Below, one piece after another: positions 5,183 through 21,544 of a stretch of DNA of 64,000 nt. The translations under genes and the position numbers were made by a program. Within the stretch, counting starts at the first letter, position 1. Each line of letters starts with the position of its first letter. The stretch covers positions 678,295 through 742,294 of the forward strand of contig NZ_BSNQ01000009.1 in NCBI RefSeq assembly GCF_030160075.1. The letters are read 5' to 3'. The notes under the pieces are model-generated. The model was given only the letters and a program-made list of their open reading frames with translations. It was not told the origin of the DNA and made no database searches. The stretch comes from Dyella lipolytica (GTDB taxonomy: Bacteria; Pseudomonadota; Gammaproteobacteria; Xanthomonadales; Rhodanobacteraceae).

Positions 5183-6292
5183 TCAAGTGCTGTAGGTACG
5201 GTCTTTCCAGCGCGAGCGGACGCCGCGCCAGTAGCGGATCGCCGAGCTCCAGGTCATGCCCAGGTAGAGCACCGCACTGACCGGCAGCAGCAAAGCCCAG
5301 GCCAGCGGCATCCGGTAATAGCGCAGCATCGGCAGGTAACTGAGCATCATGGCCACCCAGGCGATCAATCCCAACCGCCAGGCGTGCGCCGAACCCAGCA
5401 GTAGAAATGGCAACCCGTAGGCCAGGCCAAACAATGCCGTCACCACCAGCAACAACAGCGTGGAATAGCCGAGCTGGGTGAAGGCTGAGCGAGCCACCAT
5501 GTCGTGGATGGAACGCAGCGTGCCGTAAGGACGCAGGCTCACCACGCTGCGACTCAGGCCCAGCCAGATACGATAGCCAGCGTTCTTGACCTGGCGTGCC
5601 AGCGTGCAGTCGTCGATCAGTGCATGGCGCAAGCTGGCGAAAGCACCTGCGCGTTGCAGGGCCTCGGTATCGACCAGGATGCAGCCGCCGGCCGCCGCCG
5701 CCACGTGGCGGAAGCTGGAATTGGACAGCGCAAACGGATACAGCAGCTTGAAGTAGTACACGAAGGCCGGCAGCAGCAGGCGATCCCAGAAGCTGGTGCG
5801 ACGCAGGTCGGCCATCAGCGAGACGAATTGGCGGTTGTCGTGCCGCTTGTGCGCCAGCAGAGCCGCGAGCAGGCCAGGCTGCAGCTGGATATCGGCATCC
5901 AGCAGCAAGGTCATCGGCGTATGCACATGCGCCTTGCCCTGTTCCAGCGCCCACAACTTGCCGGCCCAGCCTTCCGGCAAGGGCTGGCCGCTGACAACGC
6001 GGGTGTTCGGAAAAGAGGCGGCGATCTGCGCGGTGGCGTCGCTGGATTGGTCATCGATCACGACGACCTGCAAACCTGTTCCTTGCGTTTGCAGACCAGC
6101 GAGCGTGAGGCCGATGACATCGGCCTCGTTGCGCGCGGGAATAAGTACCGTGATCTCGCCGAGATCGGCCAACCCGGCTTGCGGGTCGGCCTCAATGCGT
6201 TCGCGGGTACTCCAGGGCCGCCACGGTACGAGCAGCAGGCCCACCCACATTACTGCCGGTATCGACGCGGCAATCCATCCCAGCATGCCCAT
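5183..6292 (-). CDS. hpnB: Hopanoid-associated glycosyltransferase HpnB
   Basis: 369 residues: an N-terminal membrane helix, a GT2 catalytic domain (ITVLIPARNEADVIG, then VVIDDQSSD and the LLLDADI metal-binding Asp motif), and about three C-terminal membrane helices. The ALIDDCTLARQVK segment matches the acceptor/catalytic region seen in HpnB proteins. It is the last gene of the minus-strand mevalonate/hopanoid operon, 18 bp after hpnH. HpnB proteins accompany hopanoid loci, but their sugar and acceptor are not firmly established. The family call is confident because of the direct neighbour HpnH. Confidence 0.9.
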   Translation of the reverse strand: MGMLGWIAASIPAVMWVGLLLVPWRPWSTRERIEADPQAGLADLGEITVLIPARNEADVIGLTLAGLQTQGTGLQVVVIDDQSSDATAQIAASFPNTRVVSGQPLPEGWAGKLWALEQGKAHVHTPMTLLLDADIQLQPGLLAALLAHKRHDNRQFVSLMADLRRTSFWDRLLLPAFVYYFKLLYPFALSNSSFRHVAAAAGGCILVDTEALQRAGAFASLRHALIDDCTLARQVKNAGYRIWLGLSRSVVSLRPYGTLRSIHDMVARSAFTQLGYSTLLLLVVTALFGLAYGLPFLLLGSAHAWRLGLIAWVAMMLSYLPMLRYYRMPLAWALLLPVSAVLYLGMTWSSAIRYWRGVRSRWKDRTYST

Positions 6293-6310: not shown

Positions 6311-7450
6311 TCAATGATTCGCGTCGGTACCCGTCGCACTACGGCGCTGGATCGAGCTGATCGGAATATGGATCGCGGTGGCGTCAGCACGGTTGCCGTA
6401 CTTCACCGGTAGATCCGGCGCCATCGGACCGTCGGTGCGCGGACCGAACATCGACACCTTCAGCGCCTTCAGCGGATGGGCAAACATATCGTCGACCGCC
6501 GTACCTTCGAAGCCGCAGTGCGCCATGCAGTTGTCGCACTTCGGATTGATGCCGACACCGTATTTTTCCCACTCGGTGTCTTCCATCAGTTCCTTGTACG
6601 TCTTGGCATAGCCTTCATCCACCAGCAGATAGCACGGCTTCTGCCAACCGAAAATGTTGTAGGTGGGGTTGGACCACGGCGTGCACTGGTAGGACTGATT
6701 GCCCGCGATGAAATCCACGAACAGCGCCGACTGATTGAACGCCCACTTGCGCTTGCGTTCCTTGCCGACCTTGAAGATGTTGCGGAACAGCTGCTTGCTT
6801 TCGCTGCGACCGAGGAACACGTCCTGGCGCGGCGCATGCTGGTAGCTGTAGCCGGGCGACACGGTGATGCCTTCCACGCCCAGTTCCATCGCATAGTCGA
6901 AGAAGTCGGCCACTTCTTCCGGCGGCTCGCTGTTGAACAGCGTGCAGTTGACCGTGACGCGGAAACCCTTGGACAGCGCAAGCTTGATCGCCGTCACCGC
7001 CTTCTCGAACACGCCATCCATGCAAACGGATTCGTCGTGACGCTTTTCAAGGCCATCCAGATGCACCGACCAAGTGAAGTATGGCGACGGTTTGTATTCG
7101 TCGATGTGCTTGGGCATCAGGATCGCATTGGTGCACAGGTATACGAACTTCTTGCGCTCAATGAGGCCCTCGACGATCTTCGGCAGGTCCTTGTGGATCA
7201 GCGGCTCGCCGCCGGGAATCGAAACCACCGGTGCGTCGCATTCGTCCACAGCTGCCAAAGCCTGCTCGACGCTCATGCGCTTTTGCAGGATTTCCTTGGG
7301 CTGGTCGATCTTGCCGCAGCCTGCGCACGCCAGATTGCACTGGAACAGCGGCTCCAACATCATCGCCAACGGGTAACGCTTCTGACCGCTCAGCTTCTTG
7401 CCGAGGATGTAGCGCGCGATCGTGGTCTGCTGAATAAGTGGGATACCCAA
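6311..7450 (-). CDS. hpnH: Adenosylhopane synthase, radical SAM protein HpnH
   Basis: 379 residues. The radical SAM cluster motif is CNLACAGC (Cys38, Cys42, Cys45), followed by the GGEPL motif and a C-terminal CDNCMAHCGFEG segment (SPASM-like extra cysteines). HpnH adds a 5'-deoxyadenosyl group to diploptene/hopene, the first step of side-chain extension. The start is a TTG at 7448-7450 with a GGAGAG ribosome site 5 bases upstream. It follows idi by 130 bp and precedes hpnB. HpnG, which releases adenine from the product, is encoded at 23514 in the same window. Confidence 0.95.
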   Translation of the reverse strand: MGIPLIQQTTIARYILGKKLSGQKRYPLAMMLEPLFQCNLACAGCGKIDQPKEILQKRMSVEQALAAVDECDAPVVSIPGGEPLIHKDLPKIVEGLIERKKFVYLCTNAILMPKHIDEYKPSPYFTWSVHLDGLEKRHDESVCMDGVFEKAVTAIKLALSKGFRVTVNCTLFNSEPPEEVADFFDYAMELGVEGITVSPGYSYQHAPRQDVFLGRSESKQLFRNIFKVGKERKRKWAFNQSALFVDFIAGNQSYQCTPWSNPTYNIFGWQKPCYLLVDEGYAKTYKELMEDTEWEKYGVGINPKCDNCMAHCGFEGTAVDDMFAHPLKALKVSMFGPRTDGPMAPDLPVKYGNRADATAIHIPISSIQRRSATGTDANH

Positions 7451-7580: not shown

Positions 7581-8183
7581 CTAACCCTTGGACTGCGGCG
7601 CGAACACGTGAGCGTGTTCACGACGAATCCGCTGCCATTCGATCTTGAACCAGGGTGTGAAAGCCTCCGGCTTGGCCGCCATCTCCGCATCGAGCGCGTC
7701 CGGCGAGATATAGCGCAAAGCTGAGATCTCGTTCACATTAACGGTCGGTGCGTCGTCGCTGCGGCCTGCATAGACCCAGCAAAGTTCGTGCTCCGCACCC
7801 TCGGCGTCGAATTGCGCTTGGTACTCGAACTTGAACAGAAATTCGAGCGGACACGCCAGACCCAGCTCTTCTTTCAAGCGACGATGAATCGCGTTGTCCA
7901 GCGTTTCGCCGCGGCGCGGATGGCTGCAACAGGTGTTGGACCAGTAACCCGGCCACAGGCGCTTGCCTGCTGCTCGCTGTTGCAGCAGCAGCTCGCCCTT
8001 CGCGTTGAACACGAACAGCGAGAACGCCCGGTGCAAGGTGCCCTTGCCGGTATGCGCGGAAGCCTTATCGAGGAAACCTACTTCGCGATCGTCTTGATCG
8101 ACCAGCACCAAGGGCTCGTCGTCGAAGGAGACTACTTCCTTCGAATCGCGCCACTCTTGGCGTTCCAGTTCTTGATTATCCAA
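7581..8183 (-). CDS. idi: Isopentenyl-diphosphate delta-isomerase, type I (Nudix)
   Basis: About 200 residues starting at TTG 8181-8183, chosen because a GGAGG ribosome site sits 6 bases upstream and the start overlaps the end of the preceding gene by 8 bases. A longer upstream reading would run into the HMG-CoA reductase/mevalonate kinase gene. Type I IDI motifs are present: GTLHRAFSLFVF, the NTCCSHP catalytic Cys segment, and the Nudix helix RRLKEELGL. It interconverts IPP and DMAPP, needed because the mevalonate route yields only IPP. Confidence 0.93.
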   Translation of the reverse strand: MDNQELERQEWRDSKEVVSFDDEPLVLVDQDDREVGFLDKASAHTGKGTLHRAFSLFVFNAKGELLLQQRAAGKRLWPGYWSNTCCSHPRRGETLDNAIHRRLKEELGLACPLEFLFKFEYQAQFDAEGAEHELCWVYAGRSDDAPTVNVNEISALRYISPDALDAEMAAKPEAFTPWFKIEWQRIRREHAHVFAPQSKG

Positions 8184-10476
8184 TGTCGACCTCCATCGCC
8201 TGATAACCGGCGTCGCGCATCGCGGCCGCGACTTTCTCGCGGTTCTGCGGGCACAAGGCGACGATGGAACCGCCGCCGCCACCGCCGGTGAGCTTGGCGC
8301 CGAGCGCGCCATGCTCGCGCGCGATCTGCACCAGTTCTTCCACTTCCCAGCTCGATACGCGCAACGCATTGAGCAGGCCGTGGCAGATGTTCATCAAATC
8401 GCCGAGACGCTCCAGGTCGTACTGCTGCATGGCTTCCACGCCTTGCAGGGTCAATCCGTCGATCTGCTGGAAGATGCCGTCGTATAGCGCTGGGTTGCGC
8501 TGCCACGCCGTCCGCACCTTGCCGACCGTTACAGCGGTAAGACTTTCCTTGCCGCTGATGCCGATCACCAGCGGAATGCGCTTGGGCAGTTTCAACTCCT
8601 GCACCATCGGTGCGCCGCCCGCTTTGGCCGCCCGCTTGTAGAGCAGAGGTTTACCGTAAGTTGCCACCGTGTTGTCGATGCCGGAGGCCGAGCCGTGCGC
8701 CACTTCTTCGCAGCGGAAGGCCAGCGCGTTGATTTCCTCATCGCTCAGGCCAAGCTTGTAATGCTGGTCGAGTGCACGGATCACCGCCACCGCCATCGCC
8801 GCGGAACCACCCAGGCCCATCGCGCGCGGCACATTCGGGAACACTTCGATGCGCACCGAGCGCTCGGTCAGTTCCAGCGTGTCGAAGATGATGCCGAGCG
8901 AGCGCTGGAACGAATCGCGGTGTGCCGGATCGCGATGCAGGCGATATTCCACACCCCAGCGCGGGATAAGCATGTCGACGCCGCCGGATGTCGTGTCCTG
9001 CGCGATGGCGCGCACAGCCAGCGGCACCGGTGCGGCGATCGCGTGGCTGCCGTAAACCACGGCATGCTCGCCGAGCAGGATGATCTTGCCGTGACCGCAA
9101 GCGCGGTGATCGACCGCCGGATGCTCGACCGTTGTTTCGGGAACGCCGCGCGACTCCTTGCGCACCTGATCGACGATCTCCTGCGCTTTCCAGATCTTGA
9201 TCTCGCCGCTTTCCACCAGGCGCTCGACCACCGTGTCGAAGATCTCCGCCGTGGCACCTGCGGCCACCGCAACACTGCGCGCATGCAGGGTCATATGACC
9301 TTGCTGGATGCCTTCGGTGACAAGCGCACGCAGCGCCGAGAAATTCTGCGCCAGACCGACCGCGCCCATCACTTCAGCCAGTTCGCGCGCGGTCTTCACG
9401 CCAAGCAGGCGTAGATCGAGCGCTACCGTGGCATTGGATTGCAGCGGGCCGCCGACGATACCGACCTTCATCGGAATATCGAGCTCGCCGATCAGCTCAC
9501 CCTTCTCGCCCTTGTACCAGCGCGTCAGCGAGGTATAACGACCGCCGCGCGCAGCATAAGCATGCGCAGCAGCCTCGATCGCGCGCCAGTCGTTGCCGGT
9601 GGCCAGCGCGACGGCATCCACGCCGTTCATGATGCCCTTGTTGTGCGTGGCGGCGCGGTAAGGATCGATGCTGGCGAACTCGTTCGCGAGCATGATGCCA
9701 TCACGCACTTCCTCGCCCGCAAAACCTTTGCCGGTGAGATGCTCGACGGGAATCACGCAACGCGCGCGCACCATCGAACGATCGGTGAGGTTGGAGAGAA
9801 TGCGCAGGAATACGCGGCCGCCGGTCATCGTCTCCACCAGCGAGGCAACGCCTTCGCACATGGTGTTGACCAGGTTGGCGCCCATCGCATCGCGCGTATC
9901 GACCAGCAAATGCACCACCAGCATGTCGCCGCCTTCGGCGCGAGCATGCACATGCACTTCCAGATCCTGCGCACCGCCGCCGCGCGCCACCATCTGCGGA
10001 TGCAGACTGTTGGCGAGGTTGAGCAGTTCGTCTTTCCGTTGCAGCAACGTCGCCTTGGCATGCGCCAGGTGCGGCACATCCACCACTTGCACTTGTCCGA
10101 TCAGCACCGGCTCAGTGCTTTCGACGGTGAAGCCACCGGTGCCGCGAACGACTTTGGCTGCCGACGACAAGGCCGCCACGATCGACGGCTCTTCCACCAC
10201 CAGCGGCACGATGTAATCGCGACCATTGACGAGAAAATTGAGACCCAGGCCGACCGGCAGACCCATCACGCCGACGACGTTCTCGATCATCTTGTCGGCT
10301 TTGTGAATCTTCAGCGTGTGCTCGCCGGACACGAGCGCCTGATAGTCCTCCGAGGACAACCAGCCGCGCTCATGCATGATGCGTACGCGGTCGGAGACGG
10401 AAAGTTTGTAGAAGGCGGGGAATCGGGAACGTTCGGCACTCGAAGATTCGGCGCTCATGCTTTCTGCACTCCGCAT
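8176..10476 (-). CDS. HMG-CoA reductase (class II) fused to mevalonate kinase
   Basis: One uninterrupted 766-residue frame. Residues about 18-445 are a class II HMG-CoA reductase: MIENVVGVMGLPVG, catalytic Glu in VVEEPSIVAA (about 95), Lys in THNKGIMNG (280), Asp in TGNDWRA (296) and the His of QGHMTLHAR (394). Residues about 459-766 are a GHMP-type mevalonate kinase: GHGKIILLGEHAVVYG, then PRAMGLGGSAAMAV, the Asp of SGIDNTVATYGKP (601) and LTGGGGGGSIV near the C-terminus. No stop or frameshift separates the halves; the linker is about 15 residues. It would turn HMG-CoA into mevalonate and then 5-phosphomevalonate. Start could be Met1 or Met7. All key residues look intact. Confidence 0.93.
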   Translation of the reverse strand: MRSAESMSAESSSAERSRFPAFYKLSVSDRVRIMHERGWLSSEDYQALVSGEHTLKIHKADKMIENVVGVMGLPVGLGLNFLVNGRDYIVPLVVEEPSIVAALSSAAKVVRGTGGFTVESTEPVLIGQVQVVDVPHLAHAKATLLQRKDELLNLANSLHPQMVARGGGAQDLEVHVHARAEGGDMLVVHLLVDTRDAMGANLVNTMCEGVASLVETMTGGRVFLRILSNLTDRSMVRARCVIPVEHLTGKGFAGEEVRDGIMLANEFASIDPYRAATHNKGIMNGVDAVALATGNDWRAIEAAAHAYAARGGRYTSLTRWYKGEKGELIGELDIPMKVGIVGGPLQSNATVALDLRLLGVKTARELAEVMGAVGLAQNFSALRALVTEGIQQGHMTLHARSVAVAAGATAEIFDTVVERLVESGEIKIWKAQEIVDQVRKESRGVPETTVEHPAVDHRACGHGKIILLGEHAVVYGSHAIAAPVPLAVRAIAQDTTSGGVDMLIPRWGVEYRLHRDPAHRDSFQRSLGIIFDTLELTERSVRIEVFPNVPRAMGLGGSAAMAVAVIRALDQHYKLGLSDEEINALAFRCEEVAHGSASGIDNTVATYGKPLLYKRAAKAGGAPMVQELKLPKRIPLVIGISGKESLTAVTVGKVRTAWQRNPALYDGIFQQIDGLTLQGVEAMQQYDLERLGDLMNICHGLLNALRVSSWEVEELVQIAREHGALGAKLTGGGGGGSIVALCPQNREKVAAAMRDAGYQAMEVDIG

Positions 10477-10548: not shown

Positions 10549-11625
10549 TCACGTCTGCCGCATATGGCAGCTGAATCCTTGGGATTCAAGGTGCAAGGGC
10601 ACAACTCGCATATCTTCCATAACGATGGCGCGTTCAAATGTCGCCAACCTTTCTGCATCTTCGGCAAAAACCACGCCGAAGTCGCCACCCGCGCCGCAAG
10701 GCTTGTAACTGACGCCTGCACTGACCGCCATTTGCGCCAAATGTTTCTGCGCAGGCGAATAGATTTCCAGGCCGCAGGCATCGCCGAAGTTCTGCAATGC
10801 CAATGCGTAGTCTTTTGTCAGTTCAATGAAAGATTGCGCACGTTGCTGCTGCCATGCATCCACGGCGGCCTCGGAAATCATGCGAAGTTTGCCCATATGC
10901 GCGGCATAGTCAGCGGCCCGAGTCACGCGCCACTGCGCCAGACGCTGCAGGAAATCGTTGGTCGATACGGCATGGCCGGACCACACGAACAGGCCATGCA
11001 CCCCGGGTATAGGCCATGTCAGCGGCGTGAACGTAGGCACGCGCTCCGGCCCTGTCAGCTGATAGCTGATCAAACCTCCGGCCACGCTCGCTGCGACATC
11101 CACGCCACTGCCGCGTCCACCCTGCCAGCCGCCGTGCATGTGGAACAACCGGCGCAGCCATTGCAGGCGATCCGCGGTCGCATCGCCATGACCGGCATAC
11201 GTCGCCAACGCAGAGGCAAGTGCGACGGTCAGCGCCGCGCTGGAGCCGAGCCCCAGCTTGGCGCGCGCTGCGCCATCTGTGTGGAAGAAGCCCGAGGTAT
11301 CCAGATGCAGGCTGAAACCTTCAGCGGCATGCGGCGACAGCCCTTCGCGCACGAGGCCTTGCCACACGTGACTGACCAGCGTGAGGCGGGCCGACGTAGC
11401 CTCGTCGCACTGCCACTGCAATGCCCCGTCGGCTCCGATGGACATGCGAGCGTCGGTGATATCAAGATCTGGTGCATACACATTGCATACACCATCAGCA
11501 CGCGAGGTGATGCGCACATGGGCGCGGCGATTCACTGCTAGCACCAGCGCGGGTGCACCTTCCAGTACGGCGTATTCACCCAGCAACACCAGCTTGCCAG
11601 GCGCGCTTGCGGTGAGCTCCATCAT
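10549..11625 (-). CDS. Phosphomevalonate kinase (GHMP family)
   Basis: 358 residues from ATG 11623-11625, which overlaps the stop of the preceding decarboxylase gene by 4 bases. Motifs: SAPGKLVLLGEYAVLEG at the N-terminus, KLGLGSSAALTVA (ATP-binding loop) around residue 125, GRGSGVDVAAS around 167, and a C-terminal KPCGAGGDFGV loop. The N-terminal EYAVLEG and the GSGVDVAAS element are characteristic of phosphomevalonate kinase rather than mevalonate kinase. It converts 5-phosphomevalonate to the diphosphate, between the two adjacent operon enzymes. The gap to the next gene is 72 bp. Confidence 0.9.
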   Translation of the reverse strand: MMELTASAPGKLVLLGEYAVLEGAPALVLAVNRRAHVRITSRADGVCNVYAPDLDITDARMSIGADGALQWQCDEATSARLTLVSHVWQGLVREGLSPHAAEGFSLHLDTSGFFHTDGAARAKLGLGSSAALTVALASALATYAGHGDATADRLQWLRRLFHMHGGWQGGRGSGVDVAASVAGGLISYQLTGPERVPTFTPLTWPIPGVHGLFVWSGHAVSTNDFLQRLAQWRVTRAADYAAHMGKLRMISEAAVDAWQQQRAQSFIELTKDYALALQNFGDACGLEIYSPAQKHLAQMAVSAGVSYKPCGAGGDFGVVFAEDAERLATFERAIVMEDMRVVPLHLESQGFSCHMRQT

Positions 11626-12650
11626 GCCTCCAGCGTGCTCGCCGAAATGCTGCGCGCGCCCGCCCCGAGACCGGTGTCGAGCACATCGAGTACGCCGGGA
11701 ACATCCTTCAGCGCCGCTTTCACCCGCTCGATCGCCGACGGCTCGCACACCGCTTTCAACTGCGGCCCTGCATCGACGGTGAAGAACACCGGCAAACCTT
11801 GCTGACGCAGCGCGCGCACGCGATGCATGCACTCGATGGTGGCGCCATTCCAGTACAGCAATCCAGGCTGCGCGGCCATCGCCAGCGCATGCATCTTCAG
11901 GCAACTGTGTTCGGAAATCAGCGCGAGCGCCTCGAAATCGCGCGCAAGAATGGCACGACGCGCGGTGGCGAGATCCGCTTCCTGCGTATCGATCCAGGCG
12001 GACTGAAACGGTGACGTCTGCGCGGTGCGGCGCATGCCTTCGCTGGAACCGACCTGCTTGGCTGCGGTGGAAGTGATCGCCACCGCGACGCGCAACGGCC
12101 ATGCGTCCGCAGCCAGTAACGGCCGTGCAACGGAGTCGGTGCCATCGACCCGTTGACCATGCGCCCATTCGACATAACCGCCGAAGATGGAGCGCGCTGC
12201 CGATCCCGAGCAACGCCGCGCCAGCACCGATTGCTCCGCTTCGCTGAGATCAAGACCTAACGCTTGCGTGCCGGCGTGCACCAGCGCGGCAAACCCGGAG
12301 GCGGAAGAAGCCAGACCCGCAGCCGTTGGGAAATTATTGCGGCTCGCCACGTCAGCGCCGTAGTCGACCGCCGCGCGTTGGCGCAGCAGATCCAGGCAGG
12401 CCGTGACGCGCTTCGATTCGGCTTCGTCGCTGCGCCCGTTGAGGCTGACGCGGTCCTGCTTCTGTCCGGGCACAAAGCGCACTTCCGTGCGCGTCCACAG
12501 ACTTTCCAGCGTGATGGAAATGGAGCCGACCACGGGCAGGTTCAGCGCGGCATCGCGCTTGCCCCAATATTTGATCAGGGCGATGTTGGGCTGAGCCTGC
12601 GACGCAGCATGGAGTTCACCGAGTGCATCGGCGTGGGGTTCACGTTTCAT
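11622..12650 (-). CDS. mvaD: Diphosphomevalonate decarboxylase
   Basis: 342 residues. The N-terminal NIALIKYWGKRD motif is diagnostic for mevalonate diphosphate decarboxylases, and the family's FPTAAGLASSASGFAAL phosphate loop (about residue 109) and an SGSAARS segment follow; a VDAGPQLKAV segment lies near the C-terminus. It produces IPP from mevalonate diphosphate. It is the second gene of the minus-strand operon, 46 bp after the DUF2147 gene and overlapping the phosphomevalonate kinase start. Together with the fusion protein it gives every step from HMG-CoA to IPP. Confidence 0.95.
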   Translation of the reverse strand: MKREPHADALGELHAASQAQPNIALIKYWGKRDAALNLPVVGSISITLESLWTRTEVRFVPGQKQDRVSLNGRSDEAESKRVTACLDLLRQRAAVDYGADVASRNNFPTAAGLASSASGFAALVHAGTQALGLDLSEAEQSVLARRCSGSAARSIFGGYVEWAHGQRVDGTDSVARPLLAADAWPLRVAVAITSTAAKQVGSSEGMRRTAQTSPFQSAWIDTQEADLATARRAILARDFEALALISEHSCLKMHALAMAAQPGLLYWNGATIECMHRVRALRQQGLPVFFTVDAGPQLKAVCEPSAIERVKAALKDVPGVLDVLDTGLGAGARSISASTLEA

Positions 12651-13348: not shown

Positions 13349-14494
13349 ATGTCATCAAGCTGGATCGCCCACGCCATTATCCACGGGCTCGGCATCGCAC
13401 TCACTTTTGCTGCGACCGGGTACGCCTGTGTCGCCCTGTGGGCCGTGCTGAGAGGCAGGCGCGCGTCGAACCGTGCGGAACGCGGCCTGCAACCGGTCAC
13501 CATCCTCAAACCACTGCATGGGACAGAGCCCAGGCTTTACGAGAACCTGCGCAGCTTCTGTGTGCAGGTGCATCCGGATTATCAACTGGTGTTCGGCGTG
13601 CGCGATCCGGACGATCCGGCCATTGCGGTCGTGCAGCGGCTTCGCGCGGAATTCCCGCAGCTTGCGATGGTGTTGGCGGTGGAGCCGCGCGTGCATGGCG
13701 CGAATCTGAAAGTCAGCAATCTTATGAACATGCTGCCGCATGCGCAGCACGACTGGCTGGTGCTGGCCGACAGCGACATCAGCGTGTCCGCCGATTACCT
13801 GACGCGTGTGACTGCACCGCTGGCGGACCCCGAGGTGGGCATTGTCACTTGCCTTTACCACGGCATCCCCGGGCCTTCGTTCTGGTCGCGCCTCGGCCGC
13901 CTGTTTATCGATGACTGGTTCGCGCCCTCGGTGCGGCTCTCGCATGCCTTCGGTTCGACGCGTTTCGCCTTCGGCTCGACCATCGCATTACGGCGCAACG
14001 CGCTGGCGACGATCGGCGGGTTCGAGGTCTTGCGCGATACGCTCGCCGACGACTTCTGGCTCGGCGAACTGACGCGCCGCGCCGGACTGCGCACCGTGCT
14101 ATCAGACGTGGTGGTGGGCACGGATGTCGGCGAAGCCCGATTGTCCGAGTTATGGACGCATGAGCTGCGCTGGCTGCGCACCATACGGTCCATCGCTCCC
14201 TTGGGTTTTGCGATGACCTTCGTGTGTTTCACCACCCCGTTACTGCTGCTCGGACTTTGTCTGGCGCCCGGCCCAGCGACGATGGCCCTGGCACTACTGG
14301 GTGGCGCCGCGCGGGTTTTGCTACACTTTTTGCAGCGGCGCACCAGTGATGAAGCCTTCGCCTGGCATGAAGTCCTGTTGGTCCCCCCCCGCGATGTCTT
14401 ATTGCTGATGGAATGGGCAGTCGCCCTGGCCGGTTGGCAGGTAAGATGGCGCGGGCAGGTACTGCACGCACGCGGTGGCGGTTCAGCGCCGTAG
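13349..14494 (+). CDS. hpnI: Hopanoid glycosyltransferase HpnI
   Basis: 381 residues: an N-terminal membrane helix, a GT2 domain like ceramide glucosyltransferases (QPVTILKPLHGTEPRLYENL, VLADSDISVSADYL, then LADDFWLGELTRRAG and a HELRWLRTIR segment corresponding to the QxxRW motif), and C-terminal membrane helices. HpnI adds N-acetylglucosamine to bacteriohopanetetrol in the pathway HpnI-HpnK-HpnJ leading to the cyclitol ether. It leads the plus-strand operon; hpnJ starts 78 bp downstream. Confidence 0.92.
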   Translation: MSSSWIAHAIIHGLGIALTFAATGYACVALWAVLRGRRASNRAERGLQPVTILKPLHGTEPRLYENLRSFCVQVHPDYQLVFGVRDPDDPAIAVVQRLRAEFPQLAMVLAVEPRVHGANLKVSNLMNMLPHAQHDWLVLADSDISVSADYLTRVTAPLADPEVGIVTCLYHGIPGPSFWSRLGRLFIDDWFAPSVRLSHAFGSTRFAFGSTIALRRNALATIGGFEVLRDTLADDFWLGELTRRAGLRTVLSDVVVGTDVGEARLSELWTHELRWLRTIRSIAPLGFAMTFVCFTTPLLLLGLCLAPGPATMALALLGGAARVLLHFLQRRTSDEAFAWHEVLLVPPRDVLLLMEWAVALAGWQVRWRGQVLHARGGGSAP

Positions 14495-14572
14495 ACCTAA
14501 GCTATTTGCCATATTTCTGAACTATCTGCTGTCCCCGGGCACAGTTAAGTGCCTCCGCAGGAGTCATTCGTA

Positions 14573-16000
14573 ATGAAAACGCTTTTTCTGCAAGCTCCCT
14601 CTTTTGACGGCTTCGATGGCGGCGCCGGTTCGCGCTATCAGGCCAAACGCGAGATCAAGAGCTTTTGGTACCCGACCTGGCTGGCGCAGCCGGCAGCGAT
14701 GGTGCCCGATTCGCGCGTGCTCGATGCGCCCGCCGACGAGATCTCGGTGGAAGACAGCCTGCGCATCGCCGAGGGCTACGACTTGGTGATCATCCACACC
14801 AGCACGCCTTCGTTCCCGACGGATGCGAAGTTCGCGGAGCTGCTGAAGGAACGCAAGCCGAATGTGATGATCGGCCTGGTGGGTGCGAAGGTCGCGGTGG
14901 ATCCGTCCGGTTCGCTGACCGCCTCGTCCGCCATCGACTTTGTCGCGCGCGAAGAGTTCGACTACACCTGCAAGGAAGTCGCCGAGGGTCGTCCGTTCGA
15001 AAGCATCACCGGCATCAGCTACAAGCTGGCCGACGGCACGGTGCAGCACAATCCGCCGCGCGCGATGATCGAGAACATGGATGATCTGCCCTTCGTGGCG
15101 CCGATCTACAAGCGCGACCTGACGATCAACAATTACTTCATCGGTTATCTCAAGCACCCGTACGTCTCGATCTACACGGGTCGCGGCTGCCGCTCCAAGT
15201 GCACGTTCTGCCTGTGGCCGCAGACCGTGGGCGGTCACCGCTACCGCACGCGTTCGGCCGCCAATGTGCTGGCCGAAGCGAAGTGGATCAAGGAGAACAT
15301 GCCCGAAGTGAAGGAGCTGATGTTCGATGACGACACCTTCACCGACAGCTCCAACATGGATCGCGTGCACGAGATCGCGCGCGGCCTGGGTGCGATGGGC
15401 TGGACCTGGTCCTGCAACGCCAAGGCGAACGTGCCGTACGAGTCGTTGAAGATCATGAAGGAAAACGGCCTGCGCCTGCTGTTGGTGGGCTACGAGTCGG
15501 GCGACGACCAGATCCTGCACAACATCAAGAAGGGCCTGCGTACCGACATCGCGCGCCGCTTCACCGAAGACTGCCGCAAGCTCGGCGTCATGATCCACGG
15601 CACCTTCATCCTGGGTCTGCCGGGCGAGACGAAAGAAACGATCGACAAGACGATCCAGTTCGCCAAGGAAATCAATCCGCATACCATCCAGGTATCGCTA
15701 GCCGCGCCGTATCCAGGTACCACCCTGTACAAACAGGCCGTCGACAACGGCTGGCTGCAGGAAAATGAAGCAGTCAACCTGGTCAATGACAAGGGTGTGC
15801 AGTTGGCGCTGATCGAGTACCCGCATCTTTCCAAGCAAGACATCTTCCACGGTGTCGAGAAGTTCTACCGGGCGTTCTATTTCCGCCCGTCGAAAATCTG
15901 GGAAATCGTCAAGGAAATGCTGGCCAGCTGGGAAATGATGAAGCGTCGTTTACGCGAAGGTGTGGAGTTCTTCCGCTTCCTGCGCGCGCACGAGGCTTGA
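14573..16000 (+). CDS. hpnJ: Hopanoid radical SAM protein HpnJ
   Basis: 475 residues from ATG 14573, preceded by GCAGGAG. The N-terminal third is a cobalamin-binding-like Rossmann domain (LVIIHTSTPSFPTD and VMIGLVGAKVAVD). The radical SAM cluster motif CRSKCTFC has Cys206, Cys210 and Cys213, followed by an LLVGYESGDD segment and GTFILGLPGET. HpnJ contracts the glucosamine ring to the cyclitol of bacteriohopanetetrol cyclitol ether. The gene lies between hpnI and hpnK in the expected order. Confidence 0.95.
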   Translation: MKTLFLQAPSFDGFDGGAGSRYQAKREIKSFWYPTWLAQPAAMVPDSRVLDAPADEISVEDSLRIAEGYDLVIIHTSTPSFPTDAKFAELLKERKPNVMIGLVGAKVAVDPSGSLTASSAIDFVAREEFDYTCKEVAEGRPFESITGISYKLADGTVQHNPPRAMIENMDDLPFVAPIYKRDLTINNYFIGYLKHPYVSIYTGRGCRSKCTFCLWPQTVGGHRYRTRSAANVLAEAKWIKENMPEVKELMFDDDTFTDSSNMDRVHEIARGLGAMGWTWSCNAKANVPYESLKIMKENGLRLLLVGYESGDDQILHNIKKGLRTDIARRFTEDCRKLGVMIHGTFILGLPGETKETIDKTIQFAKEINPHTIQVSLAAPYPGTTLYKQAVDNGWLQENEAVNLVNDKGVQLALIEYPHLSKQDIFHGVEKFYRAFYFRPSKIWEIVKEMLASWEMMKRRLREGVEFFRFLRAHEA

Positions 16001-16059: not shown

Positions 16060-16896
16060 GTGCAGACCTCGCCCACCACGACGATCCGTCCGCGCCTGAT
16101 CGTCACAGCGGATGATTTCGGTTTGCATGAGGCCGTCAACGAAGCCGTCGAGCGCGGCTATCGCGACGGCGTGCTGCGCGCCGCCAGCCTGATGGTTACC
16201 GCCCCTGCCGCGGCCGACGCCGTTCTTCGTGCGCGCCGGCTTCCGGGTTTGGCCGTGGGGCTGCATCTCGTGCTCGCTGACGGCAAGGCCATACTGCCTC
16301 CTGCACAGATTCCCGATCTGGTTGATGCGCAAGGCATGTTCAACTCCGACATGGTGCGCAACGGTTTCCGTTTTTTCTTTTTGCCGCACGTGCGGCGGCA
16401 ACTAGCTGCTGAGATCCGCGCGCAATTCAAAGCGTTCGCCGCCACAGGGCTGCGTCTTGATCACGTCAATGCACACAAGCATTTTCATTTGCACCCCACG
16501 ATTCTGTCGCTGATGCTCTCGATCGGTGGCGAATATGGTCTGCGCGCAATCCGTCTGCCGGCGGAACCCGGCATGGGACCGTGGCTGCGTCCGTGGCTAG
16601 CGCTGATGCGCTGGCGCATGAAGAAAGCCGGCATCACGTACAACGATCATGTCTTTGGCATTCGCCATAGCGGCGGCATGGACGAAACCGTGATGCTGGA
16701 TATCTTGAGACAACTGCCGCCTGGCCTTTCGGAGGTGTATCTGCACCCTGCCTCGCACGGCCACCTGACTGACAGCATGGCCGATTACCGTCACGCCGAC
16801 GAACTCGCCGCACTGCTGTCGCCGCGCGTGCGCGACACCATCGCCGAACGCTATCGCTTGTGCGATGGCTTCGCCGATCCGGCGGCAGCCGCGTGA
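16060..16896 (+). CDS. hpnK: Hopanoid-associated deacetylase HpnK (YdjC family)
   Basis: 278 residues starting at GTG 16060 with TGAGGT upstream. YdjC-family motifs are clear: RLIVTADDFGLHEAVN at the N-terminus (metal-binding Asp-Asp), AVGLHLVLADGKA, and LDHVNAHKHFHLHPT (His ligands near residue 140), with LHPASHGHL at the C-terminus. HpnK removes the acetyl group from the GlcNAc-hopanoid before HpnJ acts. Its stop overlaps the hpnL start. Confidence 0.93.
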   Translation: MQTSPTTTIRPRLIVTADDFGLHEAVNEAVERGYRDGVLRAASLMVTAPAAADAVLRARRLPGLAVGLHLVLADGKAILPPAQIPDLVDAQGMFNSDMVRNGFRFFFLPHVRRQLAAEIRAQFKAFAATGLRLDHVNAHKHFHLHPTILSLMLSIGGEYGLRAIRLPAEPGMGPWLRPWLALMRWRMKKAGITYNDHVFGIRHSGGMDETVMLDILRQLPPGLSEVYLHPASHGHLTDSMADYRHADELAALLSPRVRDTIAERYRLCDGFADPAAAA

Positions 16897-17930
16897 ACAT
16901 GAAGCTGCTCAGCTATATCGCCGGCCTGCTTGGCCTGGCTGTCGCCATCGCACTGGTGGCACATCAGGGTTGGGGTGAAATCGCCAGCGCCATCGATCGC
17001 GCCGGCTGGCCCCTGTTGTGGTTGTTGCCGTTCCACGTACTCCCACTGCTGCTGGACGTGATCGGCTGGCGCGTGCTGATCGCGCCACGCGATCCACATC
17101 GGCGAGCCACCCTTCCTTTCCTGTTCTGGATCGCCGCGATCCGCGAGGCAAGCAACCGCTTGTTGCCGGTCGCGAACATCGGCGGCGAAATCATCGGCAT
17201 CCGCCTGGTGAAGTGGCGCGGCATCGCCGGCGCGGCCGCGGCGGCAAGCATCATCATGGAAGTGCTGCTCACACTGGTGAACCAATATCTGTTCACCGCG
17301 CTGGGCATCATCCTGTTGATCGAACTGACGCGGAATATCAGCGCTTTCAGCACGGTCATTTCGGCGCTCGTCGCCAGCCTGCCGCTGCCGATTTTCCTGA
17401 TCATCGTGTTGCGTCATGGCAAGGTGTTTTCGCGCCTGGAGACCTTCGCGGAGAAATTGCTGGGTGGCCGCTCGAAGCTTACGGAGCTGATCGACGGTTC
17501 GAACCTGGATCTGGAAATCCGCGCGCAATATTCGCGACCGCTACGCCTGATCGTCGCCTGCGGCTGGCAATTCCTCGGTTACGTAGTCGGCAGTTTCGAA
17601 ACCTGGCTGGCGCTGCACCTGCTGGGTTATCCGATCAGCATGTGGGACGCTATTGCTATCGAAGCGGTGACGCAGGCGCTGCGCCATATCATCTTCGTGG
17701 TGCCGGCCGGCCTGGGTGTGCAGGAAGGCGGTCTGGTGCTGTTTGGCAACATGATCGGCCTTCCGCCGGAAGCCAGCGTGGCGCTGTCGCTGGTCAAGCG
17801 CATGCGCGAGGTTGGCTTCGGCGTGCCCGCGCTGATTTCCTGGCAGTGGGCCGAAGCGCGCCGAATACGCACCCAGTGGCGCGACGGCGCGGGCGCGGCG
17901 CCTGAATTGTCCAACAGCCGCGACGCATAA
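16893..17930 (+). CDS. hpnL: Hopanoid-associated membrane protein HpnL (LPG synthase-like fold)
   Basis: 345 residues from GTG 16893, overlapping the hpnK stop by 4 bases; ATG 16899 is an equally possible start. It has about seven to eight membrane helices and belongs to the lysylphosphatidylglycerol synthase transmembrane/UPF0104 group (EASNRLLPVANIGGEIIGIRLVKWRG near the first third, ending with VPAGLGVQEGGLVLFGNMIG). It probably takes part in moving or handling hopanoids at the membrane; the exact role in this family is not proven. Confidence 0.88.
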   Translation: MNMKLLSYIAGLLGLAVAIALVAHQGWGEIASAIDRAGWPLLWLLPFHVLPLLLDVIGWRVLIAPRDPHRRATLPFLFWIAAIREASNRLLPVANIGGEIIGIRLVKWRGIAGAAAAASIIMEVLLTLVNQYLFTALGIILLIELTRNISAFSTVISALVASLPLPIFLIIVLRHGKVFSRLETFAEKLLGGRSKLTELIDGSNLDLEIRAQYSRPLRLIVACGWQFLGYVVGSFETWLALHLLGYPISMWDAIAIEAVTQALRHIIFVVPAGLGVQEGGLVLFGNMIGLPPEASVALSLVKRMREVGFGVPALISWQWAEARRIRTQWRDGAGAAPELSNSRDA

Positions 17931-17976
17931 CACCGCCCAACGCCATACGTTAAAAGAAAGAAGACGAGGTTTTTTG

Positions 17977-18870
17977 ATGTCGAACGACGCCGCCATTGCT
18001 GCCGCCGATTACGCCATGCGCAACTGGCTGGGTGCCGAGCCCGGCAAGATCAAAATCGGCTCGGATGCACACAAGCGCCTGTTCTGCCGGATGCTGCTGG
18101 ACACGCATAACCCGTATAAGCCCGCCGTCATCGTGTGGCCAACGTTGGGCGCGGATGCTTTGCATCGCATCACCTCGCTACCGATCTGGGATATCGCGGT
18201 GCAAACCGAAGGCCGCGCCACGTTGCGCGTGGAGACATTCACCAAGACGGTAAAAGATCCGCTGCTGGTGGACGCGCTAACCATGGACGGTGGTGAAGAA
18301 GCGCGCCACAAGGTAGTGCTGAGCAAGCTGGTGGAAGCCTATGGCATTGCACTCGCGCCGGAACCCGAATACGAAGTACCGAAGGATCCCGAATGGGGTT
18401 GGCTGGTCACCGGCTACAGCGAATGTATCGACAGCTTCTTCGCTTTCGGTCTGTTCGAATCGGCCAAGCGCACCGGCTACTTTCCTGCCGAACTGGTGGA
18501 AACCTTCGAGCCGGTGATCCAGGAAGAAGCGCGGCATATTTTGTTCTTTGCCAACTGGGCGGCGTGGTACCGCCGCCAGCTGCCCTGGTGGCGACGTCCG
18601 CTGTTCGCGCTGAAAGTGCTGCGCGTATGGACGTTCCTGATCTGGGAGCGCATCGGCATCGCCAAGGGCCTGGACACCAATGGTGAGATGCAGGATGCGA
18701 ACTTCGCGATGACCGGTCACGAACAGATGGGCATCGACCTCAAGGTCGGCGAACTGATCGACATCTGCCTGGCCGAAGACAAGCGGCGCATGGATGGTTA
18801 TGACAGCCGGCTTCTACGCCCGACCTTTGTTCCGCGCTTGGCACGCATCGCGCGCTTCTTTATCCGCTAA
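17977..18870 (+). CDS. Ferritin-like putative diiron protein, function unknown
   Basis: 297 residues from ATG 17977 with GACGAGG upstream; 46 bp after hpnL on the same strand. Two EEARH motifs (residues 107-111 and 183-187), plus Glu79 in a first helix and Glu149 in a third, give the E/ExxH pattern of a four-helix carboxylate-bridged diiron protein. There is no clear signal peptide. A Trp/Arg-rich hydrophobic stretch (about 191-225) could lie on the membrane surface. It is not one of the named Hpn proteins. In this position it might carry out an oxygen-dependent modification of a hopanoid or isoprenoid, which is inference only. Alternatives are an oxidoreductase of another lipid or a metal-handling ferritin-like protein. 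Confidence 0.7.
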   Translation: MSNDAAIAAADYAMRNWLGAEPGKIKIGSDAHKRLFCRMLLDTHNPYKPAVIVWPTLGADALHRITSLPIWDIAVQTEGRATLRVETFTKTVKDPLLVDALTMDGGEEARHKVVLSKLVEAYGIALAPEPEYEVPKDPEWGWLVTGYSECIDSFFAFGLFESAKRTGYFPAELVETFEPVIQEEARHILFFANWAAWYRRQLPWWRRPLFALKVLRVWTFLIWERIGIAKGLDTNGEMQDANFAMTGHEQMGIDLKVGELIDICLAEDKRRMDGYDSRLLRPTFVPRLARIARFFIR

Positions 18871-18879
18871 CGGGGCGTT

Positions 18880-19146
18880 AGAGCCTGTCTACGATGTCGG
18901 CGTGGCCCGCGCCGGGACTGTTTGCCTGTCGGGCAAGGAGGAACGAAGGCGTGTATGTCGATACACAACTGAGTGAGGACGCAGCCCGGCGGGCAAACAG
19001 ACCCGGCCCTTCGGGTTGTCACGGTGCGGCCGCCATGCGGCAGCGCGCGGCTTGGCTTGCCAGCCAGGCAAGCGCTGCGCCACGCACTACCACCTGCCGG
19101 CCGCACCGTGACAACGCGGGCTACGCCGACATCGTAGACAGGCTCT
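18880..19146. repeat. 267-bp multi-armed inverted-repeat element (MITE-like)
   Basis: Outer arms 18880-18911 and 19115-19146 are complementary at 31 of 32 positions. Inside lie two further hairpin arms: 18918-18934 with 18984-19000 (15 of 17 paired, itself holding a GTGTAT/ATACAC hairpin) and 19016-19032 with 19098-19114 (17 of 17, holding GCAGCGC/GCGCTGC and GCTTGCC/GGCAAGC pairs). A small CCCG/CGGG hairpin separates them. The whole folds as a cloverleaf. It fills the gap between the ferritin-like gene and hpnA, its right end touching the hpnA stop codon. Confidence 0.85.
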
Positions 19147-20123
19147 CACTGCTGCTGACGAAACCACTGCACGGCATCTTCCAGCGCCAGACGTGCGGGA
19201 CGCGCCGAGTAACCGAGTTCGCGCTCGGCCTTCGCACTGGAAAAGAACATGCGTTTTTTCGACATGCGCACTTCTTCCACGGTGGCGATCGGATTCATGC
19301 CCGTGAGGCGCGCCCATGCTTCGGATGCATACGCAATCGGCATCACCACCGCATGCGGCAAGCGAACCTTGGGCGGCGACCGTCCCGCGATGTCCGCGAT
19401 CTCGATCAGCACATCGCGCAGGCTCATATCGAAGCCGCCAAGAATGTAGCGCTCGCCCACCACGCCGCGTTCGAACGCCAGCCAGTGTCCTTCGGCCACA
19501 TCGTCCACATGCACGATGTTGAGTCCGGTATCGACGTACGCAGGAACGCGGCCGTTCATCGCGTCGCGCACCACGCGGCCGGTAGGCGTGGGTTTGATGT
19601 CGTGCGGACCGATCGGCGTGGAGGGATTGACGATCACCACCGGCAAACCGTCGGCGGCAAATTTTCTAGCCTCCGCTTCGGCGAGAAATTTGGAGCGCTT
19701 GTAGTGTCCGATCATGTCGTCGACCGTCACCGGGGTGGTCTCGCTGCCGGGCGTACCGTCCTTGGGGATACCCAGCGTGGCGACGCTGCTGGTGTAGACG
19801 ATGCGCGGCACGCCGACCCGCTTCGCCGCTTCCAGGATCGCGCGCGTACCGTCGACATTGGCGCGATACAACTCCGCGGGATCGGGCGCCCAAAGTCGAT
19901 AATCGGCCGCGACATGGAACAGCGCATCGCAGCCGTCGCAAGCTGGCAGCAAGGAAGCCGGCTTGGTGAGATCACCCTCGAGGACTTCTACGTCGAGCCC
20001 CTGCAAATTGCGGCGATCCGAGCCGGCTCTCGCCAGCACTCGGACACTATGTCCGCCGCGGAGCAAGCGCCGTGCGACCGCCGAGCCGACAAAACCCGTG
20101 GCCCCCGTGACCAGCGCCTTCAC
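19146..20123 (-). CDS. hpnA: Hopanoid-associated sugar epimerase/NAD-dependent reductase HpnA
   Basis: About 325 residues from GTG 20123 (an alternative GTG at 20138 adds five). The SDR/epimerase fold is clear: ALVTGATGFVGSAVARRLL (NAD-binding GxxGxxG), then a YTSSVATLG segment with the catalytic Ser/Thr, and in place of YxxxK the local GHYKRSKFLAE stretch (Tyr-Lys-Arg-Ser-Lys). This matches the HpnA group found in hopanoid loci, whose exact substrate is uncertain. It is the only minus-strand gene between plus-strand hopanoid genes and abuts the cloverleaf element. Confidence 0.9.
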   Translation of the reverse strand: MKALVTGATGFVGSAVARRLLRGGHSVRVLARAGSDRRNLQGLDVEVLEGDLTKPASLLPACDGCDALFHVAADYRLWAPDPAELYRANVDGTRAILEAAKRVGVPRIVYTSSVATLGIPKDGTPGSETTPVTVDDMIGHYKRSKFLAEAEARKFAADGLPVVIVNPSTPIGPHDIKPTPTGRVVRDAMNGRVPAYVDTGLNIVHVDDVAEGHWLAFERGVVGERYILGGFDMSLRDVLIEIADIAGRSPPKVRLPHAVVMPIAYASEAWARLTGMNPIATVEEVRMSKKRMFFSSAKAERELGYSARPARLALEDAVQWFRQQQ

Positions 20124-20344
20124 GGTGAAACCGCCCACATGGGGACCGGCGGCGCGTATCGGTCATGGGCCCGCACATTCAAACGAGTTGGGACTGTCAT
20201 CGCACAATTATGGACGAAAACCGCTCGCTGCTTCAGCATAATAGCGATGGTTGCCCCACCCCCACCCGCTTCGCAACCTGATGCGCGTTGTGACGCGGGA
20301 ACTTCAAACAGCGCCAGCATTCCAAATTCCAGCACTCGTCGGTG

Positions 20345-20353
20345 TGGCATAAT
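20345..20353 (+). promoter_or_regulatory. Possible extended -10 promoter for the squalene synthase operon
   Basis: TGGCATAAT has the TG-N-(T/C)ATAAT form of an extended -10 element, 22 bp upstream of the chosen ATG. No -35 box at the right distance is seen, which extended -10 promoters do not require. Confidence 0.4.
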
Positions 20354-20374
20354 TGGAACGGCCGAGGCATGCCC

Positions 20375-21544
20375 ATGACCCAACAACAAAATGCCACCAT
20401 CCACGCGATAGGCGATGAGGCCAACACCTATCAGGATGCGATCCTGCCGAAGGTGTCCCGGACCTTTGCGCTGACCATCCCCCAGCTTCCCCCGGAGCTG
20501 CGGCGCGCCGTGGCCAACGCCTATCTGCTGTGTCGCATCGCCGACACCATCGAAGACGAGCCGGCGCTGTCGGCCGCACAGAAGCGCGCTTTCGAGAATG
20601 CCTTCGTCGATGCCGTCACCGGCGATGCCGATCCGCAACGCGTCGCCAACGATGTTGCGCCCCTACTTTCGAACGAGACGCTGGAAGCCGAACGCGACCT
20701 GATGCGGCAGCTGCCGCTGGTGTTGCAGGTCACGCGCAGCCTCGCGCCTGCGCAGCAAGCCTCCATCGTGAAGTGCCTGCAGATCATGTCGCACGGCATG
20801 CACGACTTTCAGCGCAAGGCCGGACTGCATGGCCTGCCCACGCTGCATGACCTGGATCGCTACTGCTACTGCGTCGCCGGCGTGGTGGGCGAGATGCTGA
20901 CCGAACTGTTCGTCGACTTCGAACCTGCACTCGCTCCGCATCGCAACACCATGTTGCGTCTGGCCGTGTCCTTCGGTCAGGGCTTGCAGATGACCAACAT
21001 CCTCAAGGATCAATGGGAAGACCGCGCGCGCGGCGCCTGCTGGTTGCCGCAGGACATGTTTGCGCGTCACGGCATCAAGCTGATCGATCTGCAAGCCGGC
21101 AAGCAGAACGCTGGTTATGCCGCCACGATGTCCGAGCTGATCGGCATTGCCCATGCGCACCTGCGCCAGGCGCTCGAGTACACCCTGCTGATTCCGGTCA
21201 AGCATGCTGGCATTCGCCGTTTCTGCCTGTGGGCGATCGGCTTGGCGCTGCCGACCCTGCGCAATCTGCAGAACAACCTCGACTTCTCGGCCGGTACGCA
21301 AATCAAGATTTCGCGCAAGGCCGTCGGGCGCACCATCGTGATGACGCGCCTGCTCGGCAAATCCAACGCGGGTTTGCGCTGGCTGTTTGCGATGAACGCG
21401 CGCGGTCTGCCGCTCACGCCGCTGACCGTCGAATGGAGCGAGCCTTCGACGCCCACGCACACCTGGCCTAAGCGCTCCATTCCGCACATCACGAACGTTA
21501 CCTGGCACGAGCCGGCGGAAGTCCAGGAAGTTCGGCAGCGATGA
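20375..21544 (+). CDS. Squalene synthase-type enzyme (trans-isoprenyl diphosphate synthase, head-to-head)
   Basis: 389 residues from ATG 20375, chosen because GAGG lies 7 bases upstream; ATG 20369 is also possible. Two Asp-rich motifs are present: LCRIADTIEDEP (about residue 55) and GLQMTNILKDQWED (about 213). The protein is about 100 residues longer than HpnC or HpnD, and no HpnC or HpnE is in the locus, so it looks like a one-enzyme squalene synthase converting two FPP to squalene with NADPH. A role as HpnD (presqualene diphosphate synthase) with partners elsewhere is the alternative. Its stop overlaps the cyclase start (ATGA). Confidence 0.82.
   Translation: MTQQQNATIHAIGDEANTYQDAILPKVSRTFALTIPQLPPELRRAVANAYLLCRIADTIEDEPALSAAQKRAFENAFVDAVTGDADPQRVANDVAPLLSNETLEAERDLMRQLPLVLQVTRSLAPAQQASIVKCLQIMSHGMHDFQRKAGLHGLPTLHDLDRYCYCVAGVVGEMLTELFVDFEPALAPHRNTMLRLAVSFGQGLQMTNILKDQWEDRARGACWLPQDMFARHGIKLIDLQAGKQNAGYAATMSELIGIAHAHLRQALEYTLLIPVKHAGIRRFCLWAIGLALPTLRNLQNNLDFSAGTQIKISRKAVGRTIVMTRLLGKSNAGLRWLFAMNARGLPLTPLTVEWSEPSTPTHTWPKRSIPHITNVTWHEPAEVQEVRQR

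Follow-up and report, generated by a model that had tools for sequence, protein, structure and literature searches.

The window analysed here, a stretch of 64,000 nucleotides from the genome of the soil-type bacterium Dyella lipolytica, encodes on its minus strand a single protein in which a class II 3-hydroxy-3-methylglutaryl-CoA (HMG-CoA) reductase (HMGR) is followed by a mevalonate kinase (MK). Judged from its sequence, this protein is probably a biosynthetic bifunctional enzyme that would carry HMG-CoA to mevalonate-5-phosphate, two steps on one chain. An initial annotation had recognized the fusion but gave no strand; our analysis adds that the fusion has a wide distribution, that its gene belongs to a recurring mevalonate cassette, here placed within a hopanoid cluster, and that genes of the methylerythritol phosphate (MEP) pathway are missing from the genome. 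Within this genus, the cassette with the fusion has apparently supplanted the MEP pathway as the source of isoprenoids, and in many bacteria such a cassette seems to have displaced the route by which bacteria usually make them.

Two complete enzymes in one reading frame

The frame runs without interruption from 10476 to 8176 and specifies 766 residues with zero internal stops; a second in-frame ATG at 10458 offers an alternative start. The initial annotation's claim of a complete class II HMGR and a complete GHMP-type MK in this frame is borne out, both halves exceeding the equivalog cut-offs of their family models. The reductase domain (residues 17–439, positions 9160–10428) matches PF00368 in Pfam with 363.7 bits (residues 27–399) and the class II model TIGR00532 in NCBIfam with 424.3 bits against a cut-off of 259.95 (residues 7–399), while the kinase domain (residues 460–766, positions 8179–9099) matches the GHMP N and GHMP C domains in Pfam and the MK model TIGR00549 in NCBIfam with 234.3 bits against a cut-off of 163.05 (residues 462–741). 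Only HMGR and GHMP-type families were found on the chain with these two databases, and no thiolase domain was matched. The linker lies where it had been placed (residues 440–459, positions 9100–9159), but measured by the profile boundaries it comprises 20 residues rather than the proposed 15 or so. The best solved relative of residues 17–439 is the HMGR of Pseudomonas mevalonii, and the kinase half matches the solved MKs of Leishmania major and Methanosarcina mazei by sequence with 145 and 119 bits, respectively.

Conservation of the active sites was assessed over 109 fused alignment rows, which are not de-duplicated (some genomes occur twice) and from which L001 and L011 were left out. E95, E96, K280, N284, D296 and H394 of the reductase are present in 109/109 rows, as are K464, S558, D601 and T647 of the kinase, with E590 found in 108; every residue singled out in the initial annotation (Glu95/96, Lys280, Asp296, His394, Asp601) is thus retained throughout. 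We take E96, K280, D296 and H394 to be the catalytic Glu, Lys, Asp and His of class II reductases, and K464, S558, E590, D601 and T647 to be MK active-site residues with the roles they have in the rat enzyme. The alignment also shows that the stretch beyond H394, in a reductase domain that includes the C-terminal small (lid) domain, is kept in the fused reductase as it is in unfused ones. A difference is evident at the position of D146 of P. mevalonii, presumably a nucleotide-site Asp bearing on cofactor choice: 108 of the 109 fused rows have His there, and 17 of the 31 unfused sequences have Asp. The His suggests that the fused reductase uses NADPH, or both cofactors, and would hence serve synthesis rather than NAD-dependent breakdown.

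The full-length fusion was found in all 16 sampled genomes of the genus, that of D. lipolytica among them. Median ratios of nonsynonymous to synonymous substitution (dN/dS) over the 120 pairs of these genomes were 0.032 for the HMGR half, 0.044 for the MK half and 0.131 for the linker, the least conserved part of the fusion. Both halves are under strong purifying selection, in a pattern that reads as that of two working enzymes on a loose tether. The linker spans 11–28 residues across the fused rows, its shortest form of 11 residues belonging to the most divergent copy (L010, class sample), and 16–28 residues in the best 80 loci from a species-genome collection, which were kept from at least 581 confirmed relatives ranked by their match to the fusion (search patterns were taken from the HMGR half). 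An assembly artefact or frameshift joining two adjacent genes is scarcely conceivable and was rejected, as the same open frame recurs in independent genomes, both in the 16 of the genus and in all of these 80 fetched loci.

In the D. lipolytica genome the fusion is the only HMGR match and the only MK above the cut-off. The MK model has three other hits, namely the phosphomevalonate kinase of the cassette, a frame that fits heptose 7-phosphate kinase best, though below the cut-off of that family, and a homoserine kinase; a second HMGR or MK was therefore rejected.

Apparent loss of the MEP pathway

IspG and IspH are both unmatched in the D. lipolytica genome, which indicates that synthesis of isoprenoid precursors would need the mevalonate route and that the fusion is probably the cell's only reductase and kinase for this purpose. 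IspH is likewise unmatched in 14 of the 15 other genus members, the sole match coming from a fragmented genome with 4% contamination (G923). In a second genus of the family, IspG went unmatched in 13 of the 14 genomes with the fusion, the exception (G871) again being fragmented. It is also unmatched in seven of nine fusion genomes elsewhere in the class, as opposed to being matched in 6/6 fusion-free family members.

DXR, another enzyme of the MEP pathway, shows the same contrast. Of the 197 family genomes 169 gave a match, with hits in 158 of the 161 that lack the fusion and in 11 of the 36 that carry it (eight unmatched genomes were identified by elimination). Two of the three fusion-free genomes lacking a DXR match are only 82 and 85% complete. 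Among the 11 DXR of fusion genomes, five score over the family cut-off and six, all from Dyella, below it. These six dxr copies sit, where read, between cdsA and rseP-like genes; five are full-length (L153–L157) and the sixth (G915; L158/L159) is split over two frames. In the five full-length copies the nonsynonymous divergence is 0.34–0.52 versus 0.08–0.15 for rseP, 2.4–4.9 times higher pair by pair, but synonymous change is also higher (0.86–1.83 versus 0.55–0.81), giving dN/dS values of about 0.2–0.5 versus 0.13–0.21 for the adjacent rseP. In four intact relatives DXR evolves more slowly than rseP. Constraint on the Dyella dxr is, by these estimates, relaxed but not gone.

As a separate observation, the dxr beside rseP drifts in Dyella, yet its frame is open in five of six copies; translation through the drifting gene is perhaps still needed for rseP.

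Distribution and origin of the fusion

A genome listing of the two-domain order, such as the initial annotation had envisaged, found full-length fusions in samples of the family, class and phylum (each including the D. lipolytica genome) as well as in the species-genome collection. They occur in 36/197 genomes of the family sample, in 9/369 of the class sample (with one more, G181, truncated at a contig end) and in 2/398 of the phylum sample, where 13 others carry an unfused reductase at E <= 1e-80. In the species-genome collection both domains share one frame in 80/80 of the best loci, at identities down to 58%, a figure that describes the top of the ranking only and includes one locus cut by a contig end (L085). 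Record titles among these 80 name Dyella, Nevskia, Wenzhouxiangella, Rhodanobacter, Marinobacter and Litchfieldella, the closest named relatives being Dyella species of the family Rhodanobacteraceae with 94–96% identity. The fusion is also present in metagenome-assembled genomes (MAGs) labelled Acidobacteriota, Thermoanaerobaculia, Calditrichota, KSB1, Myxococcota and Deltaproteobacteria, although such labels can err. A plasmid collection yielded 58 matching records, none covering 80% of the query, and among the matches listed only the reductase half was found. A 916-residue frame ending in an unfused reductase (L044) was considered as another fusion and rejected because it holds no second known domain.

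In a quick tree search with the reductase sequences (L001, L011 and L085 dropped; thinning at 93% identity left 66 of 108 fused rows), the 66 fused and 31 unfused sequences fall on opposite sides of one branch with a support of 99 in the Shimodaira–Hasegawa-like approximate likelihood ratio test (SH-aLRT). Given that the fused reductases form one side of this branch, one fusion event would be enough to explain the known copies. Within the fused clade, the window copy, L060–L062 and two Rhodanobacter copies do not group, and a forced grouping was rejected in a quick tree of both halves (approximately unbiased test, p-AU 4e-67), the six copies having been chosen after the first tree was seen. 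L060–L062 are family members by group code and the Rhodanobacter copies by NCBI name, two naming systems that cannot be matched to each other. Since these copies fail to group and the window copy shares a clade with Nevskia-labelled MAGs (order Nevskiales), the trees point to horizontal transfer of the fusion.

The cassette and its hopanoid neighbourhood

The fusion gene is the third in a minus-strand cassette of the order MVD-PMK-[HMGR-MK]-IDI. Diphosphomevalonate decarboxylase (MVD; 11622–12650) matches TIGR01240 with 293 bits against a cut-off of 171, and its stop overlaps the start of the phosphomevalonate kinase-like GHMP kinase (PMK; 10549–11622), which scores 63.7 bits with TIGR01220, below the cut-off of 165.7. 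This PMK is divergent and its substrate is assumed from its position. The type I isopentenyl-diphosphate isomerase (IDI; 7581–8183) has a likely TTG start that overlaps the stop codon of the fusion. In the fetched loci, some of which are cut by contig ends, the fusion has IDI as a neighbour in 77/80, PMK in 70/80, MVD in 66/80 and hpnH in 35/80; these counts refer to the best 80 loci of the species-genome collection and not to those of the family, class or phylum samples.

The cassette lies inside a hopanoid cluster. On one side are found HpnH, the adenosyl-hopene transferase (6311–7450, minus strand), and HpnB, a hopene-associated glycosyltransferase (5183–6292, minus strand); on the other, all on the plus strand, are HpnI (13349–14494), HpnJ (14549–16000), HpnK and HpnL (16060–17930), a squalene synthase-like protein (20342–21544), squalene-hopene cyclase (21541–23517) and farnesyl diphosphate synthase (26459–27361). 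An isoprenoid supply route and a main consumer, the hopanoids, lie next to each other. The squalene synthase-like protein scores higher with TIGR01559 (126 bits, below the cut-off of 286.75) than with the HpnD (83.5 bits) or HpnC (56.9 bits) models, so that a single enzyme may form squalene here in place of HpnCDE. Between hpnL and this gene are two plus-strand frames of 298 and 494 residues (17974–20378) with no Pfam match at E 0.001 and no NCBIfam match at E 1e-10; the second of the pair was matched in 6/80 fusion loci.

The source of HMG-CoA

A divergent HMG-CoA synthase is encoded on another contig of the D. lipolytica genome (C1:107509–109038, L176), with 501 residues from a TTG start. 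It is 86% identical to another Dyella copy (L160 1378–2961), which scores 154 bits with TIGR01835 against a cut-off of 360. Synthases of this divergent type, about 500–530 residues long, were matched by protein search in 11/22 fusion genomes versus 0/13 fusion-free genomes, and the gene lies within 13/80 fetched fusion loci. The fusion genomes without a match are G873, G880, G118, G331, G234, G040, G732, G782, G786, G879 and G893, of which G873 and G880 likewise lack a match to DXR or IspH. PF08540, tried on six of these eleven genomes, G873 and G880 among them, gave no match, but this proves little because the model also missed three Dyella genomes (G897, G809, G823) whose synthase was recovered by protein search. 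An archaeal HMG-CoA synthase model matches all 22 genomes as well as Escherichia coli and is uninformative here, as the two hits inspected (G118, G873) are beta-ketoacyl-ACP synthase III. Either the synthase of these genomes is still more divergent, or their HMG-CoA comes from another source.

Why fuse the reductase to the kinase?

In the reading that we favour, a bifunctional enzyme of synthesis, the class II reductase half would make mevalonate from HMG-CoA and the tethered kinase half would phosphorylate it at once. The likely advantage would be an equal (one-to-one) dosage of both activities; in addition, an ATP-driven kinase beside the reductase exit could exert a thermodynamic pull on the reversible step and commit carbon that might otherwise be lost as mevalonate. 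Such a pull could make the fusion beneficial because the reaction of class II HMG-CoA reductases is reversible and its product, mevalonate, may escape. Dosage together with the ATP-driven pull is likely to be the benefit needing the least assumption. We infer both activities, their direction, the pull effect and the sole supply from the sequence evidence.

Several observations weigh against this reading. The top NCBIfam name for the reductase half is ‘hydroxymethylglutaryl-CoA reductase, degradative’, and both PMK and HMG-CoA synthase score below their family cut-offs, the synthase being unmatched in half of the fusion genomes examined (11/22). The D. lipolytica genome keeps a DXR over the family cut-off (L151 1495–2670), and both DXR and IspH are kept in four further fusion-bearing family members (G782, G786, G879, G893), from which it follows that the MEP and mevalonate routes can coexist. 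The reductase tree carried a long-branch warning (the unfused L029 and L030 meet). In an AlphaFold2 model the two halves have no confident mutual arrangement, with a predicted TM-score (pTM) of 0.49, and the model was accordingly kept out of any argument on domain contacts.

The family name, together with the fact that the closest solved structures are those of P. mevalonii, raises the question of whether the reductase half might be degradative, oxidizing mevalonate to HMG-CoA as in that species. We regard this as highly improbable and set a degradative role aside as the main one, on the grounds of the change at D146, the missing IspG and IspH, which would leave synthesis dependent on the mevalonate route, and a setting in which MVD, PMK and IDI accompany the fusion next to hopanoid genes; moreover, the attached kinase would draw on the same mevalonate. 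A more serious, though still doubtful, alternative is that the fusion serves only equal expression and assembly, with no kinetic benefit, having become fixed through chance and travelled along with the cassette. The flexible linker would fit this view, as would the horizontal transfer suggested by the tree and the overlapping coding ends of MVD with PMK and of the fusion with IDI. On the other hand, the unfused homologues fall outside the fused clade, and no split version occurs in the best 80 of at least 581 loci, although a split copy would tend to score lower and may lie outside these 80.

True channelling, which the initial annotation had raised, is only possible, and we consider it unlikely. 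The kinase would here sit on the mobile C-terminal lid of the reductase and receive mevalonate without mixing with the bulk. It is joined directly after the C-terminal small domain, the length of the linker stays at 11–28 residues in the fused rows, the model is uncertain at residues 389–394, and the two chains of the P. mevalonii structure, 1qax_A and 1qax_B, differ in listed length (425 and 372 residues), which would fit a C-terminal part that is sometimes disordered. Against this, the linker is the most variable part of the protein, with a predicted local distance difference test (pLDDT) score below 50 at residues 444–456, and the pTM value gives no fixed arrangement of the halves. Lid-coupled transfer is an attractive, if unlikely, idea. 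A more far-reaching scenario, which we offer as speculation and think quite improbable, is that the kinase riding on the moving lid receives mevalonate directly upon lid opening and makes the reversible reductase one-way, that a mobile mevalonate cassette built around so compact a unit has ousted the MEP pathway time and again, and that in hosts with no recognizable HMG-CoA synthase the HMG-CoA stems from, for example, leucine breakdown.

Significance and comparison with known systems

The bifunctional enzyme proposed here would unite two steps around the rate-limiting reductase of the pathway in a naturally occurring protein, which could serve in tests of channelling and as an off-the-shelf component in terpenoid engineering, and the replacement of the MEP by the mevalonate route would be traceable at several stages within one bacterial family. 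Such a fusion is easily overlooked because its best-scoring name is that of a degradative HMG-CoA reductase. The initial annotation knew of no characterized reductase–kinase fusion, and this agrees with the open-access literature, in which we found no description by title or opening abstract, subscription papers being mostly outside the search; papers matching an exact phrase deal, to judge from the titles, with fungi, human splicing and tumour genomes. In passages from a 2026 review, MvaE and IspDF are named as fusions, with the word ‘fusion’ occurring once and ‘fused’ never (PMC13001223). A passage of another paper describes the mevalonate pathway as specific to Wenzhouxiangella versus Marinicella and does not mention a fusion there (PMC7691419), and passages of a third give no hit for Xanthomonad-, Dyella or Rhodanobacter (PMC10663253). 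Natural fusions in isoprenoid synthesis are thus known, while the HMGR–kinase pairing and its cassette appear undescribed in the literature searched.

Comparison with characterized enzymes places the two halves on familiar ground. The reductase half has the fold and the catalytic residues of P. mevalonii HMGR, with 51% identity to 1qax_A over 429 columns, but the enzymes of P. mevalonii (1qax) and Delftia acidovorans (6dio) are unfused and have Asp where the fusion has His. The kinase half resembles the MKs of L. major (2hfs) and M. mazei (4hac, 6mde), with 31–32% identity in structure matches, but these are free-standing. Among fusions, MvaE has its thiolase domain first and joins HMGR to this non-adjacent earlier step, unlike the protein described here, in which HMGR comes first and is followed by the kinase of the next step. 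Both are bifunctional mevalonate-pathway proteins that include HMGR, the partner in MvaE of Enterococcus faecalis being an acetoacetyl-CoA thiolase according to the review excerpt (PMC13001223). The review also gives IspDF as a natural fusion in the MEP pathway; like it, the Dyella protein is a natural fusion of two isoprenoid-precursor enzymes, but IspDF belongs to the other pathway and joins non-consecutive steps, whereas HMGR and MK would act one directly after the other.

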